From an uncultured Halomicronema sp. (GTDB lineage Bacteria > Cyanobacteriota > Cyanobacteriia > Phormidesmidales > Phormidesmidaceae), in the NCBI GenBank assembly GCA_937899725.1, contig CALCCA010000029.1, positions 1 to 52,369 of the forward strand: a stretch of DNA of 52,369 bases. The letters are read 5' to 3'. The notes below the pieces were generated by a model that was not told the origin of the DNA, made no database searches, and was given only the letters and a program-made list of their open reading frames with translations. Below, piece by piece: positions 10,990 through 44,175 of this stretch (its first letter is position 1; each line of letters begins with the position of its first letter). The translations under genes and the position numbers were made by a program.

Positions 10990-12156
10990 ATGCCAGTCAG
11001 CCCGGCTCAGATCCGCGCGGTCTTAGACGAAAAGCAGCAGCAGCTTACAGACTTTAATCAAACCATGGGGGCTGATCTCCAGCGCTATCGCAAAGCCTGG
11101 CGCGCCCTGACCGCTGAGCCCTTCGAGCAAATCGCGCCGCAGCTATCGGCACCGAGCATGGGTGCTCACTTACTTGAACCCTTGACGACGGTCAACAAAG
11201 GAGTGATTCCCAATGCTCATCAGTGGGCCAACCGCGAAGACAGCCTGGGATGGGTGAAATCAAAGCTATCCGGCATCACGACCTTTGCTGTGGATGGCTC
11301 GCAAATCTTTCCCAGCAAAGATGTCTCGCTGCCCATTGCCTTAGTGCAAATTGGCTGGTTCGAAAATCCCCATGCTGCCGACGGCGACTACACCAAAGAT
11401 ATTGCCCTCGACGTCTTGACGCCAGAGGATTTGAAAGTTGGCCATCGCGGCGACCCGGTCGATCGGCGGGTTAACATTCGCCGCTTTGAGATGGAAGTGC
11501 AGCGCCTGGTGGATTACATGGAAGCCTGTGGCCATCCTGAGCGCACCCTGGTGCTGTTTGATGGCTCCCTGGTGGTCACCTTTGCCGATGCCTTTGATCC
11601 CGAGAGTCAAAAAGCCTATGTCGATGCCATGGTCAAGCTATTACAGACCAGCCAGCGGCGGCGTGTGCCGCTGGTAGGCTACATCGACACATCCTACGCT
11701 CGCGATGTCACGACCTTGCTACAGCACTATGACTCCAAGCTCAAACCAGTAGAAGCGATTCACGATGCCCAGCTACTAGGGCGATTGATGAAATGGGGCG
11801 ATCGCACGCCGCTGCTCCGCTGCGATCGCGAGGGCATTTTGACCCACTACGGCGACCAGCAGGATCAGGTGATCTTTAGCTATTTGCAAACCAGTCGCGA
11901 TCGCCCTCCGGCCCGCCTAGAGATGCCCTACTGGCTGTGGGAAGCCGGGCTGGCAGCACCCGTGATTGACTGGGTCAAAGCGGAAGTGATCGTCGGGGGC
12001 GGCTATCCCTATGCGATTGAAACCGCTGATCAAACGGCAGTTTTACAGGCCCCCGATCGCCAGCTGTTTTATCGCATCTTGCAAGAGTGGGCTGACCGCG
12101 AAGACCTCAACGTGCAATTCTCGAAAAAGCTGGTGAGCAAACTGCGACGACGCTGA
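10990..12156 (+). CDS. nurA: NurA-domain nuclease
   Basis: 388 residues. NurA is a Mn-dependent 5'-3' nuclease that, in archaea, works with the HerA translocase in DNA end resection. The fold's acidic motifs are visible: FAVDGSQIFPS (Asp about 102), LVLFDGSLVVTFADAF (Asp about 191), VGYIDTSYARDV, and the C-terminal GGGYPYAIETADQTAVL. These match the DxS, D and C-terminal motifs of the family. Residues 1-90 are a helical N-terminal region. A HerA-type ATPase is encoded at 33.5-35.2 kb, about 21 kb away rather than adjacent, so partnership is inferred. Preceded by GAGAGAGAAGGG. Orthologues occur widely in cyanobacteria. Confidence 0.87.
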   Translation: MPVSPAQIRAVLDEKQQQLTDFNQTMGADLQRYRKAWRALTAEPFEQIAPQLSAPSMGAHLLEPLTTVNKGVIPNAHQWANREDSLGWVKSKLSGITTFAVDGSQIFPSKDVSLPIALVQIGWFENPHAADGDYTKDIALDVLTPEDLKVGHRGDPVDRRVNIRRFEMEVQRLVDYMEACGHPERTLVLFDGSLVVTFADAFDPESQKAYVDAMVKLLQTSQRRRVPLVGYIDTSYARDVTTLLQHYDSKLKPVEAIHDAQLLGRLMKWGDRTPLLRCDREGILTHYGDQQDQVIFSYLQTSRDRPPARLEMPYWLWEAGLAAPVIDWVKAEVIVGGGYPYAIETADQTAVLQAPDRQLFYRILQEWADREDLNVQFSKKLVSKLRRR

Positions 12157-12196
12157 GGGCAGCGGCCTGCCTAGCGTCTCATCCCGACATGAGAGA

Positions 12197-12733
12197 TCAG
12201 ATCGTCTCACCCAGTAAGGGCACCAGCACACAGCCTGCAATGCGCCAGGTGCTGTCGGCCTGCTGTTCCATGGGGTAGTAAGCGGTCATCCACTCGCCCA
12301 TCGGCCCCAACACCACGACCGCCTGCACGGGACTATCATCCACCCATTCCAAGTCATCAAACTCAACGGATTGAGGCCGGTAGACGGTGGCATACTGCGA
12401 TCGCACCATCGCCATAAATTGGTCAGCGGACTGAAACTGGGCTTGAATAGTTGGGCTCGCAAAGCTGAAGGCGAGCTCCGCATCATCAGCCTGAAACGCC
12501 GCCATTTGGCCTTGAATGACAGTCGTAATCGCAGCGGCATCAGCATCGGTAAGCGCATCGGCAGCAGTCTGGGAAGAGATCGACGGCGCTGGAGCGAGGA
12601 GCGGCACCTGACGAATAGTAGGAGCCTGCTCGATGAGCATCTGCTGTCGCCCCCACCAAGTGATGAGTGCCGCGATCGCCACTACTAGCCCCAACCAACC
12701 CCAAGCCTGATGACGCTTCACGGCATCGCCCAA
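12197..12733 (-). CDS. Membrane-anchored DUF4864-like protein
   Basis: About 178 residues. One N-terminal transmembrane segment (WGWLGLVVAIAALITWW) is followed by a linker and a compact alpha/beta domain: AAAITTVIQGQMAAFQADDAELAFSFAS, then FMAMVRSQYATVYRP, and a closing strand set (AVVVLGPMGEWMTAYYPMEQQ, WRIAGCVLVP). This fits the DUF4864/NTF2-like pattern, for which no function is known. The start is TTG at 12733 or GTG at 12721; neither has a strong ribosome site. It is convergent with nurA, leaving 40 bp. Probably faces the periplasm. Confidence 0.62.
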   Translation of the reverse strand: MGDAVKRHQAWGWLGLVVAIAALITWWGRQQMLIEQAPTIRQVPLLAPAPSISSQTAADALTDADAAAITTVIQGQMAAFQADDAELAFSFASPTIQAQFQSADQFMAMVRSQYATVYRPQSVEFDDLEWVDDSPVQAVVVLGPMGEWMTAYYPMEQQADSTWRIAGCVLVPLLGETI

Positions 12734-12824
12734 ATCTGGCCTACGAGCTCAGCCTAACGATATTTGGAGAGAGCTGCCAGATCACGGCATCACTGAGCGC
12801 TCACTGAACGGTGGCTCAAGGGGC

Positions 12825-13958
12825 TCAAGCCGCAAAGGGCATCGAGTCGGCATCTAAAATCGCCGTATAGAATTTCTGGAGCTGCTGGGTGGCAGCATTC
12901 CAGCCCCACTTTTCAGCTTCGATGCGGGCATTGCGGCTCATCAGTTCGCGCTCAGCCCCGCGATCTAACAGGTGTTGGGTGGCGGCGATCGCCCCATTGT
13001 CGTCTTTGGGGTCAAACAGGTAGCCGTTTTCGCCGTCGGTCACAATGTCAGGGATACCACCCGCGTTGGCCGCTACCACCGGGCAGCCCGCTGCCATCGC
13101 CTCTAGCAGCACCAGACCCAGCGTCTCTGTACGGGATGGAAAGATGAAGGCATCGGCGGAGGCATAGGCGGCCGCCAGTTCTTCCCCAGCGAGATAGCCG
13201 ACAAAGTGGGTGTGGGTATCGGCAAAGTGTTTTTCTAAGTCTTCGCGGTGGGGGCCATCGCCCACCAAGGCCAACCGAGCTTCAGGAATCGCTTCTAGTA
13301 CCGGCTTGATGCGGTCAACTTCCTTTTCTGCCGAGAGGCGACCAATGTAGAGCAGCAGGGGCGCATCGGGATGGCCCTGGCTGAGGCGATCGCGCATGTC
13401 GCGACTGGCCAATGCTGGGCGAAACAGCTCAGTATCGACTCCCCTTTGCCAAACCTGCACCCGCTCGACCCCATGGTCGCTGAGTTCCGACTGCATGGCG
13501 GTGGAGGTCACTAAATTCACCCGCGCCTGATTGTGCACGGCTTTGATCAGCTCCCACATCACCCCTTCCAACATGCCCAGGCCGTAGTGCTCCAGGTATT
13601 TGGGCAAGTGGGTATGGTAAGACGCCATGAGGGGAATGTTAAGCGTCTTGGCATAGAACAGTCCGGCCATGCCCAACACGGCAGGGTTCACGATGTGAAT
13701 CAGATCCGGGTTGAATCTTTCTAACGCTTCACCAATGGAAGGCCGCGGCAGAGCCAGCTTCAGCTCAGGATAGAGGGGAAACGCCAAGCCCGATACGCCG
13801 TGAATTTGCGCTCCCTGATAGCTTTTCAAGCCGCCTTCTGGGCAAAATACCATGACCTCATCGCCGAGCCGCTGCAGATGTTCGACCGTATGTTTGAGGC
13901 GGGTAACGATGCCGTCAACTTTGGGCAAAAACGTTTCGGTAAAGAGGGCTATGCGCAT
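12825..13958 (-). CDS. sqdX: Sulfolipid synthase SqdX (UDP-sulfoquinovose:DAG sulfoquinovosyltransferase)
   Basis: 377 residues, GT4 family. Transfers sulfoquinovose from UDP-sulfoquinovose to diacylglycerol, giving SQDG, a major thylakoid lipid. It opens with ALFTETFLPKVDGIVTRLKH and the SqdX/SQD2-type PEGG and PLYPELKLALPRP segments. The C-terminal GT4 part has LLYIGRLSAEKEVDRI and the nucleotide-sugar site SRTETLGLVLLEAMAAGCPV. It lies 150 bp downstream of sqdB on the same strand, and a large stem-loop lies between them. The pairing with sqdB makes the assignment strong. Acts at the inner face of the membrane. Confidence 0.94.
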   Translation of the reverse strand: MRIALFTETFLPKVDGIVTRLKHTVEHLQRLGDEVMVFCPEGGLKSYQGAQIHGVSGLAFPLYPELKLALPRPSIGEALERFNPDLIHIVNPAVLGMAGLFYAKTLNIPLMASYHTHLPKYLEHYGLGMLEGVMWELIKAVHNQARVNLVTSTAMQSELSDHGVERVQVWQRGVDTELFRPALASRDMRDRLSQGHPDAPLLLYIGRLSAEKEVDRIKPVLEAIPEARLALVGDGPHREDLEKHFADTHTHFVGYLAGEELAAAYASADAFIFPSRTETLGLVLLEAMAAGCPVVAANAGGIPDIVTDGENGYLFDPKDDNGAIAATQHLLDRGAERELMSRNARIEAEKWGWNAATQQLQKFYTAILDADSMPFAA

Positions 13959-13999
13959 GATCTCGTAACGGGGGCTAAAACATCACAACAAATGCTCAC

Positions 14000-14084
14000 A
14001 CACCACAAAAGAGGTTAGGTTCCACGATCCGGGTTGAAGCAATGTTGACTTCAGTGAATCTTTGAGAAACCTAACCTCTGGTGT
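14000..14084 (-). repeat. Large stem-loop between sqdB and sqdX
   Basis: Perfect 12-bp arms AGAGGTTAGGTT (14010-14021) and AACCTAACCTCT (14068-14079) enclose 46 nt. Beyond a 5-nt bulge (14005-14009) an outer 5-bp stem continues (ACACC 14000-14004 with GGTGT 14080-14084). Inside the loop a smaller hairpin forms (TGAAG 14035-14039 with CTTCA 14049-14053). In the transcript the 3' arm ends CCUCUUUUG, so it could act as a partial terminator or processing site lowering sqdX relative to sqdB. A palindromic mobile repeat is the main alternative. Confidence 0.7.
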
Positions 14085-14108
14085 CGTTAGTGACTCAGCA
14101 AAATTCAT

Positions 14109-15269
<1,161 letters not shown>

Positions 15270-15501
15270 TCAAACACTTCGCTAATACTCGCTCAATTTA
15301 TCAGCTTTGTGGCCCATAAACATAGTTTTCCGCAAAAGTTGCTCCGCCCCAAAACGGTTTCTCTATTTCTTTTGCCAGCATGTTTGGGTCAAACCGAGTG
15401 ACTTTAAGGGCTTGCGGTTTTTGCTCTACAGCGGGGCTCCAGAGCCGGCAGTTTGAGCGCACGATTCGCGATTTATTCAAGACGATTCAACTGTCTATTG
15501 A

Positions 15502-16737
15502 TCAACTCATGGCAAGTCGAAATAACCACACTTGAGTCGTTTGCTCTGGGGAAAAGTTATTGTCACTGATCAGCCAAAGGCTAGAAGTACCGTCGGGCAG
15601 CGGCGGCCCCAACGTCATGCCCTCCAAGTTATCGATCGCCGCCACCGGCAGCTCGAGCGTCGCAAAATCGAGTACCAGCTGCTTTTGAATCGGGTTGAGC
15701 TGCTCTAGGGTGGGCAGACTGGCGAAGGTTGACACATCATTGGCGCTGCCAGTAGCCAGTTGAAAAAGTTTGATTTCAAAGCCGCGAATACCATAGACCC
15801 GTTCGAGGGCGAGAAAATGTCCGCCTTGGTCAATAGCGAGGATTTCTGAAAGACCGTTGCTCACTGCGCCCAAGGGTTCAAGACTGAGAGGATAAGGGTA
15901 TTCAGCAATAAAAGTCGATTGATCAGGGCCGATGAGATAGTGCAAAAATCGGTTGACTAGGGGCTGCTCGGGATTTGGGTCAAAGTCTTGGGTCAGCGCC
16001 GATTCTGTCGCCATAAACAGGCGAAAGGGTTCAAAGGCTCCGGCACTGGAAGCGGGGCCGAGGGTAAGGGCCTCAAACCCTTGGTTGTCGCGAATGCCGC
16101 GGGCGGCAGACTCGTCAGTGGCCGCAGTGGGGACAAAGCGATCGGGAATACGAAACTCTGTTTTGAGGACGCCCGTCGCTAGATCGTATTCATTGAGGGC
16201 GGGGGGCGATTGGGTGGAGGCGACGCCTTCACTGGTAATCAGCAGCGATCGCCGGGGTGAGAGCGCCATGCCTTCGGGGTCGAGGCGATCGGCAGGATAT
16301 TCGTCACCGGCACTGTCCTTCAGGGTGGTGACCTGACGCACGTCAACGGACTGGATCTGGGGCACGCCCTGAGCGTCTAGCCCCGTTTGCATGTCGAGGG
16401 TATAAAACCGGGAGGGGGCCAGTCGGCCGCGATCGTCCGATAGGGCATAAAACAGGTCGGTTTGCGCATCGTAGGCGAGAGCTGACAAACCGCCTACGGG
16501 CGTCTCGGCAACAGTTTGCTCTGGCAAGACAGCAACATCTAACAGCTCAACGCTGAGGGGCAAAAATAGCCGATCTTCCGCACTCACCTGGGGGAAGGCA
16601 CAGCTCACCGTTGAGAGCGCCATAAAACTCAGCAGCAAGCCAGACATGGCCCTCACAATCCAGGCAGGAGCCAGCCAGCCCTGACCCTGAGCAGGTTGCT
16701 CGGTTTCCGGCATGAAACGTTTTTCCACAATCGACAT
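15502..16737 (-). CDS. Exported esterase-like protein of the phytase-like family
   Basis: 411 residues (403 if the ATG at 16713 is used). An N-terminal hydrophobic segment (IVRAMSGLLLSFMALSTVSCAF) could be a signal peptide with a loose lipobox at SC, so it may be a lipoprotein. The rest is beta-propeller-like: VGGLSALAYDAQTDLFYALSDD, then ADRLDPEGMALSP, NQGFEALTLGP, and near the end AAIDNLEGMTLGPPLPDGTSSLWLISDNNF. These repeated GLS/EGM/EAL...SDD patterns match the family known as esterase-like activity of phytase. Substrate unknown; outer location likely. It is followed on the same strand, 240 bp downstream, by sqdB. Confidence 0.72.
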   Translation of the reverse strand: MSIVEKRFMPETEQPAQGQGWLAPAWIVRAMSGLLLSFMALSTVSCAFPQVSAEDRLFLPLSVELLDVAVLPEQTVAETPVGGLSALAYDAQTDLFYALSDDRGRLAPSRFYTLDMQTGLDAQGVPQIQSVDVRQVTTLKDSAGDEYPADRLDPEGMALSPRRSLLITSEGVASTQSPPALNEYDLATGVLKTEFRIPDRFVPTAATDESAARGIRDNQGFEALTLGPASSAGAFEPFRLFMATESALTQDFDPNPEQPLVNRFLHYLIGPDQSTFIAEYPYPLSLEPLGAVSNGLSEILAIDQGGHFLALERVYGIRGFEIKLFQLATGSANDVSTFASLPTLEQLNPIQKQLVLDFATLELPVAAIDNLEGMTLGPPLPDGTSSLWLISDNNFSPEQTTQVWLFRLAMS

Positions 16738-25848: not shown

Positions 25849-26149
25849 CCCTCAGGGCAGTCGTCTGCAAAGAGCAGATCACCGTTGAACCTCAATGAAA
25901 CGCCCTCTCATCAGCTGATGAGAGGGCGTTTCAAATCTTAGCCTTTCTCCTCACCTTTGAGCAAGGAACGGGAAGAGGGAGAGCCTAGCGCTTCTTGAGG
26001 GATGGCCAGATCAGGTCTCGGCAAAGGCCGGTTCCGGCATCAGCCCACCGAGAAGCCGTATCTTCAAGCATTCCATCTGACCATACGGCAACTCGGCACA
26101 GGCCAGCGAGCTGTCGCTCCGAGGAAAATCGCGATCAGTGCTGCTGCGG
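25849..26149. other. Convergent intergenic region
   Basis: 301 bp between the 3' ends of the lipoprotein and AI-2E exporter genes. It holds the 38-bp palindrome listed separately; no further gene or RNA was recognised. Confidence 0.45.
25896..25933. terminator. Perfect 38-bp palindrome between convergent genes
   Basis: Two 19-bp arms meet with no spacer at AGCT (25913-25916); the left arm reads TGAAACGCCCTCTCATCAG. It lies 47 bp after the lipoprotein gene and could fold in transcripts from either side. Neither strand has a T-run after it, so it is not a classical intrinsic terminator; it may stabilise 3' ends or be a protein-binding site. Confidence 0.65.
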
Positions 26150-43653: not shown

Positions 43654-44175
43654 CCGCCGGCCCGATGAAGAGTTTGGCGGCGGCGACTGCTGAAATATAG
43701 TTGATCCGATTTGGGTTTTGAAACGCTACAGATTTCAGGCAGCCTGGAGGAACATCCCTGCTAAGGCCAGAGGCTCTACGATTCATAGCGTTGCCTGAAG
43801 AACCGAAGAGCCTCTTTGGTCAGTTATCTGAGTGGTTCGTCTAAGGCTTGCGGCAACTCTTCTAAATCGAGGCAATACCGGTTCGTGAATCACAATTTTG
43901 CGGACGCCACTCATCACCGCAACCTCAATCTCGACGCCCTCATATTATCTGAGGCGTCTTATACCAATTCTCTGAAACTGGACTATAGATCTTCCTTTCG
44001 ACTCCGCTCAAGGAACGTCGGCTGAGCGGAGTCGTTCGCATCGCGTCTCCCCGAGGGAGAAAGCCGACTTGTCTGTGTAGCTGTAATTTGTAGAACTGGT
44101 ATTAAAACTCAATTCGTATCCCCTGGGAATACTGAAGAAGCCAGTTAAGAACGTTGTTTTGAAGGATGGGTGGCG
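43654..44175. other. Intergenic region with two inverted-repeat structures
   Basis: 522 bp between convergent genes. It holds a 9-bp inverted repeat (AGAGGCTCT 43769-43777 with AGAGCCTCT 43807-43815, followed by TT), perhaps ending the peptidase transcript, and a repeat element at 43961-44102. The open frame at 43816-44025 crosses the repeat and is not called. Confidence 0.5.
43961..44102. repeat. Short element with terminal inverted repeats and REP-type palindrome (copy B)
   Basis: Ends ATACCAATTCT (43961-43971) and AGAACTGGTAT (44092-44102) are inverted with one mismatch. Inside is a perfect 12-bp inverted repeat CGACTCCGCTCA (43999-44010) and TGAGCGGAGTCG (44023-44034), loop 12 nt; this CTCCGCTCA/TGAGCGGAG type is a dispersed palindrome I know from many cyanobacterial genomes. 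The right end is the inverse of the left end of the element at 5728-5830. Confidence 0.6.

Follow-up and report, generated by a model that had tools for sequence, protein, structure and literature searches.

Two neighbouring genes assigned to the synthesis of sulfolipid, a lipid of the thylakoid, lie on the minus strand of the stretch analysed here (the window, 52,369 nucleotides from an uncultured Halomicronema sp.), and a hairpin occupies the spacer between them (Table 1). The product of the first gene matches the PDB chains 1i24/1qrr over practically its whole length, residues 4-386, at 634 bits; the entry gives the name SQD1, which we take to be the Arabidopsis protein. It also matches the NCBIfam model for UDP-sulfoquinovose synthase (NF041015) at full length with 465.9 bits, which does not reach the cut-off of 575. 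For the second gene, whose product contains the Pfam domains Glyco_transf_4 and Glycos_transf_1, no PDB chain matched at E 1e-30, and the best 25 of 50 NCBIfam matches included neither a SqdX-named model nor a match above its cut-off. Judged by position and family, that is by its conserved place behind sqdB and its glycosyltransferase domains, this gene is probably the sulfolipid synthase gene sqdX, a name that is partly our assumption. The available parts of earlier papers state that UDP-sulfoquinovose, the product of SqdB, is consumed by SqdX, and that RT-PCR was used in S. elongatus to follow how sqdB, sqdX and the sqdBX operon are expressed (PMC5638391); for that species such an operon is called likely (PMC7401256).

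Table 1. Genes, spacer and hairpin parts at the sqdB-sqdX locus, in the order of transcription
Feature	Position	Strand	Basis and remarks
sqdB, first of the two genes, 386 aa, UDP-sulfoquinovose synthase	14109..15269	minus	ORF; PDB and NCBIfam matches
Spacer sqdB-sqdX, 150 nt	13959..14108	minus	Sequence and ORFs
Outer stem, sqdB side, ACACC on mRNA	14080..14084	minus	Complementary to 14000-14004
Hairpin 5' arm on mRNA, AGAGGUUAGGUU, two further pairs inward	14068..14079	minus	Sequence, fold; starts after 29 nt past the sqdB stop
Interior of 46 nt with a second, weaker hairpin	14022..14067	minus	Sequence, fold
Hairpin 3' arm on mRNA, AACCUAACCUCU	14010..14021	minus	Sequence, fold
Short U-tract with 4 consecutive U, UCUUUUGUGG, at the 3' arm and past it	14003..14012	minus	Sequence
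Outer stem, sqdX side, GGUGU on mRNA	14000..14004	minus	Fold uses a shifted register
Leader of 51 nt, hairpin to sqdX start codon	13959..14009	minus	Distance count
sqdX, GT4-type glycosyltransferase, 377 aa, second gene	12825..13958	minus	ORF, Pfam

The initial annotation had described a perfect 12-bp stem with an inner hairpin in the 150-nt spacer, and both can be read directly from the letters: the arms AGAGGTTAGGTT (14010-14021) and AACCTAACCTCT (14068-14079) are perfectly complementary, with 5 G-C among the 12 pairs, and the inner stem is formed by TGAAG (14035-14039) and CTTCA (14049-14053). Of the 5-bp outer stem that it had added, the complementary letters are indeed there (ACACC at 14000-14004 and GGTGT at 14080-14084 on the forward strand), whereas the stem is weak and the fold of the mRNA prefers a slightly different register. 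The 3' arm does run into U's on the mRNA strand, as had been noted, continuing into CCUCUUUUGUGG, although with four U in a row this is only a weak U-tract. Folding of 106 nt of the mRNA strand gave -42.0 kcal/mol (z -5.6) with a main stem of 14 bp, and folding of the opposite strand gave -33.6 kcal/mol (z -3.1), with none of 200 shuffles as good in either case; the hairpin by itself, as 78 nt of the mRNA strand, folds at -29.9 kcal/mol (z -5.0, 0/200 shuffles).

Canonical intrinsic (Rho-independent) terminators likewise place a stable stem on the mRNA strand shortly past a stop codon, and their U-rich end has a possible counterpart in the four U here and in the U6-U7 of two members of the same genus. 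Unlike those terminators, the sqdB-sqdX hairpin encloses 46 nt that contain a second hairpin and has 5 G-C among its 12 pairs and four consecutive U, and since the stem is not G-C-rich and the loop is not short we do not file it as a canonical terminator. A scan for intrinsic terminators over 12000-16000, which takes loops of 3-8 only, found none, and the Rfam covariance models had no match in 13800-14300 up to E 1.

Genomes of six members of the genus were compared, and the spacers of five, including the one described here, align over the stem; the sixth (L024) has no such helix (stem z -0.4) and was therefore left out of the stem alignment and counted as a miss (5/6). Over the 14 pairs in these five congeners 97.1% of 69 cells are paired, whereas sliding the partner by 1-3 columns as a control lowers pairing to 35-57%. 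The compensatory changes for which a comparison of related spacers had been suggested are present, in that 4 pairs have changed on both sides with pairing kept, the independent changes being few because L023 is almost identical to the spacer of the window and L028 closely resembles L025. Read on the mRNA strand, the cells comprise 56 Watson-Crick, 11 G-U, 0 A-C and 2 other combinations, and the presence of G-U with no A-C fits an RNA on that strand. This strand argument comes from the congener alignment and from nowhere else, since the family-wide test over 53 strong hairpins (27 G-U vs 12 A-C) was uninformative, its coding-sequence control being identical (27 vs 12). At the 3' arm the U-tract is U4 in the window, U4 in L023, U6 in L025, U7 in L028 and UUAUU in L026. 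L028 is the same place as locus L055 of the culturable Halomicronema sp. CCY15110, and L024, with no such helix, the same as locus L053 of Oscillatoria sp. CS-180. There is good support for an element that is structured as RNA, on the mRNA strand, and against a dispersed palindrome.

For the wider comparison we took the best 30 matches and the best 80 of 412 relatives, two overlapping sets, with 110 loci in total. Twelve of these have no sqdX in the stretch and were dropped (five end within 200 nt of sqdB, seven have at least 1.2 kb behind it), while in the other 98 sqdX follows sqdB and has the same orientation; removal of repeats left 81 distinct spacers, 74 of them shorter than 450 nt, and 79 of at least 60 nt (two shorter ones were dropped), a set that leans towards near relatives. 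The best stem in the first 150 nt past the sqdB stop was scored against shuffles with a threshold of z>2.5, the z-scores being rough at 12-20 shuffles each. This score replaced a local-folding terminator score, which was rejected: of 73 spacers it accepted 43 in sense and 18 in antisense, but it also accepted 274 of 730 shuffled spacers, and its stems overran the U-tract.

A strong stem (z>2.5) was found behind sqdB in 53 of the 79 distinct spacers, and the median exceeded the threshold in 40 of 64 similarity clusters; the 26 spacers below threshold include L024. As controls, strong stems were present in 16/74 cases behind sqdX, 4/79 upstream of sqdB and 5/80 in the sqdX coding sequence. Among the 72 loci with both sites, 38 had the hairpin only behind sqdB and two only behind sqdX (p 1.5e-9, uncorrected for kinship). 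Behind other long ORFs of the same loci a strong stem occurred in 6/44 cases where the next gene is co-directional and in 5/25 where it is convergent, and behind sqdX the corresponding numbers were 1/9 and 5/12. In the genome to which the window belongs, where spacers were taken from crude longest-ORF calls and 70 of 104 co-directional ones were sampled, strong stems were seen in 19% of the co-directional spacers (n = 70), 15% of the convergent ones (n = 39) and 13% of the divergent ones (n = 30); among sqdB-sqdX spacers of 60-300 nt it was 60% of 65. Such positional conservation is, in our judgement, unusually frequent for one gene pair.

The stems themselves are unlike between genera, with unrelated arms in genera other than that of the window. 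In the Nodosilinea type the stem has 17-19 bp, lacks a U-tract and is single-copy in all four genomes searched; 8 of the 11 such and similar spacers were aligned (L070, L090 and L099, which have other stems, were omitted), with 97.4% of cells paired and 2 pairs changed on both sides. Selection appears to preserve the structure of the hairpin rather than its letters. In six loci (L032, L034, L051, L068, L072 and L083) inspection by eye indicated that the hairpin is made of short tandem repeats that stand opposite their own inverted copies, which is a possible route by which new stems arise.

All five spacers (L154-L158) of another genus of the same family (g2) have a strong stem, which ends in 4 to 7 U in four of them (L154, L155, L156 and L158, with L154 and L158 near-copies) and lies about 100 nt past the sqdB stop in L157. 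The sqdB of this genus is only 44-45% identical to that of the window and precedes an sqdX of about 80% identity, which suggests that sqdB was replaced there and that both the gene pair and a hairpin were retained. Of 20 further stretches, 13 have sqdX and a spacer longer than 30 nt, with a strong stem in 7/13; outside g2, among more distant families, only two of eight spacers longer than 30 nt have one (L159 and L164). Spacers of 14, 27 and 15 nt (L152, L153 and L169) leave no room for a stem, and four of the 20 stretches have no sqdX behind sqdB. On these counts the hairpin is common in near relatives and patchy beyond them.

The region between stem and sqdX also has regular features. The distance from stem end to sqdX start, 51 nt in the window, has a median of 54 nt over 31 similarity clusters and falls between 40 and 60 nt in 12 of these 31, against 20% expected at random placement (p 0.011). 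In the last 40 nt before sqdX the median pyrimidine share is 0.70, with 46/79 spacers at 0.70 or more, as compared with 0.45 near the approximate sqdB start (0/79 at 0.70 or more) and 0.50 before 181 other ORFs of the window's genome (9/181); the window's own spacer, at 0.575, is not extreme. In the 53 hairpins the eight positions behind the stem contain 3.64 U on average vs 2.66 at the mirror position (p 0.0011), a count that is inflated by the pyrimidine-richness towards sqdX.

The element is an intercistronic hairpin at the 3' end of the sqdB message, and most likely it would act as a leaky intrinsic terminator by which sqdB mRNA exceeds sqdX mRNA, a reading that we regard as about evenly poised between right and wrong. 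The stem would form while RNA polymerase leaves sqdB; the short U-tract would then stop part of the polymerases, and the stem would keep 3'-5' exonucleases from degrading sqdB mRNA at its 3' end. The remaining polymerases would read through the leader of about 50 nt into sqdX. As an outcome, sqdB mRNA would be in excess of sqdX mRNA, and an excess of SqdB is presumably what the cell would need. We favour this leaky terminator because the hairpin is on the right strand and in the right place, because its end is U-rich in g2 and in most members of the genus, and because it has a precedent; its four consecutive U, 5/12 G-C pairs and 46-nt interior, as well as the Nodosilinea-type stems with no U-tract, count against it, and so do the 26 of 79 spacers below threshold and the low share of stems in distant families.

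The precedent comes from S. elongatus, in which, according to the text available of PMC3219970, ORFs that share an operon can be separated by incomplete terminators, with 6:1 for phycocyanin. In that phycocyanin operon (cpc beta/alpha vs rod-linker genes) there is likewise a hairpin inside a cyanobacterial operon, proposed to result in less downstream mRNA; the phycocyanin terminator rests on transcript data, and the sqdB-sqdX hairpin, read from sequence, has a 46-nt interior and a weak U-tract. The proposal of the initial annotation, according to which the SqdB:SqdX ratio may be tuned by a leaky terminator or an RNase processing site, is plausible, and it survived two of the refuting conditions named there, many identical copies in the genome and a lack of covariation in relatives. 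The kind of mechanism is already known from the phycocyanin operon, and we found no description of an sqdB-sqdX intercistronic hairpin in the literature searched, which took in few of the subscription journals. If the interpretation is true, a structure that holds its position and changes its letters would be a simple, sequence-independent setter of the ratio of two enzymes.

To our knowledge cyanobacteria are without Rho, and non-canonical routes to transcript ends have recently been reported for them. A broader reading, which we put forward tentatively and consider rather doubtful, is that in many filamentous cyanobacteria a hairpin behind sqdB is maintained by selection irrespective of its letters, with stems replaced over time, even behind a divergent sqdB, and followed by an often pyrimidine-rich leader of about 50 nt; this would fix an SqdB excess with no regulator, and stems lacking a U-tract would end transcripts by the non-canonical routes. 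Stems in only two of the eight spacers from distant families make this broader reading slightly less likely. The natural series of stems with and without a U-tract offers a single locus for testing how cyanobacterial transcript ends are formed.

One may also consider that the hairpin stabilises or marks a processing site, with no termination: the whole message would be made and cut between the genes, and the stem would block 3'-5' exonucleases so that sqdB mRNA outlives sqdX mRNA. We think of this as possible, if on the whole unlikely, and it is the main rival because several lineages have strong stems with no U-tract and because the distance to sqdX clusters near 50 nt and the last 40 nt are pyrimidine-rich in 46/79 spacers, as if sqdX had a defined leader. 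According to the accessible sections of PMC13289151, features of canonical terminators are present at the ends of only 22% of the transcription units in S. elongatus, most units do not end by known pathways, and 75 of 163 defined ends lacking a U-tract are structured; owing to these statistics both termination and stabilisation are possible routes. The same sections, however, report stabilising structures at U-tract-less ends of S. elongatus to be largely absent, and a mere barrier would have no need of the U5-U7 that stand exactly at the 3' arm in two congeners and part of g2.

The REP-type elements of E. coli are hairpins that stabilise 3' ends, and they are repeated and share their sequence. 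The sqdB-sqdX hairpin could, like REP-type hairpins (named in the part available of PMC13289151), guard the upstream message from exonucleases, but it occurs once in the genome, and the genera do not have its sequence in common.

It would also be conceivable that the hairpin is a complete terminator of sqdB and that sqdX has a separate promoter, located within the hairpin or behind it, which we consider improbable. The genes are separable, given the seven of 110 loci with at least 1.2 kb behind sqdB and no sqdX, the U6-U7 tracts of the congeners could terminate fully, and an S. elongatus sqdB disruptant is reported, in the portion available of PMC5638391, to keep sqdX function at some level. 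Yet just 51 nt separate the stem from the sqdX start, a promoter scan of the spacer found none, and an sqdBX operon is spoken of for S. elongatus in the available parts of PMC5638391 and PMC7401256. Boxes resembling -10 elements are moreover rarer in the last 60 nt than in shuffles (2/79, 8.8 expected), a weak argument as they are depleted upstream of sqdB too (23, 49.9 expected).

The two-fold symmetry of the arms might suggest a DNA palindrome bound by a protein that regulates sqdX, a candidate that we rejected as very improbable, since the arm sequence is not conserved in relatives: the arm letters vary among congeners with pairing kept (on the mRNA strand 11 cells are G-U and 0 are A-C), the arms in other genera are unrelated, and a 46-nt interior is long for one dimer site.

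Equally improbable is a dispersed palindrome that happened to land in the spacer, or a chance inverted repeat. In 432 kb of the window's genome there are 38 perfect inverted repeats that have arms of 12 bp or more and a loop of up to 80, about one per 11 kb, so the hairpin as a bare palindrome is not extraordinary; conservation lifts it above chance. The search of the genome for further copies of the arm, which had been suggested earlier, found the exact 12-bp arm in the 7 Mb only as the hairpin's own two arms, while with up to one mismatch there were 13+12 matches vs 9+14 for a reversed-pattern control, and a query of 161 bases over the element matched only itself. A looser pattern of the arm gave 14 matches in the six genus members vs 12 for its reversed control. 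A dispersed REP- or MITE-like repeat, which the initial annotation had offered as the alternative, was accordingly rejected, with the element single-copy, mismatched matches at control level and covariation in the congeners; the Nodosilinea-type hairpin is likewise single-copy.

Two other palindromes were observed in the window. At 25896-25933, between convergent ORFs (crude calls), there is a perfect 18-bp stem with a 2-nt loop and a U-tract on neither side. At 43999-44034 lies one copy of a 36-bp palindrome (CGACTCCGCTCA, a 12-nt centre and TGAGCGGAGTCG) which is a dispersed repeat, with 95 copies in the genome at up to 2 mismatches and 0 for the control; this family shows that the genome does harbour such repeats and provides an internal contrast to the single-copy hairpin.
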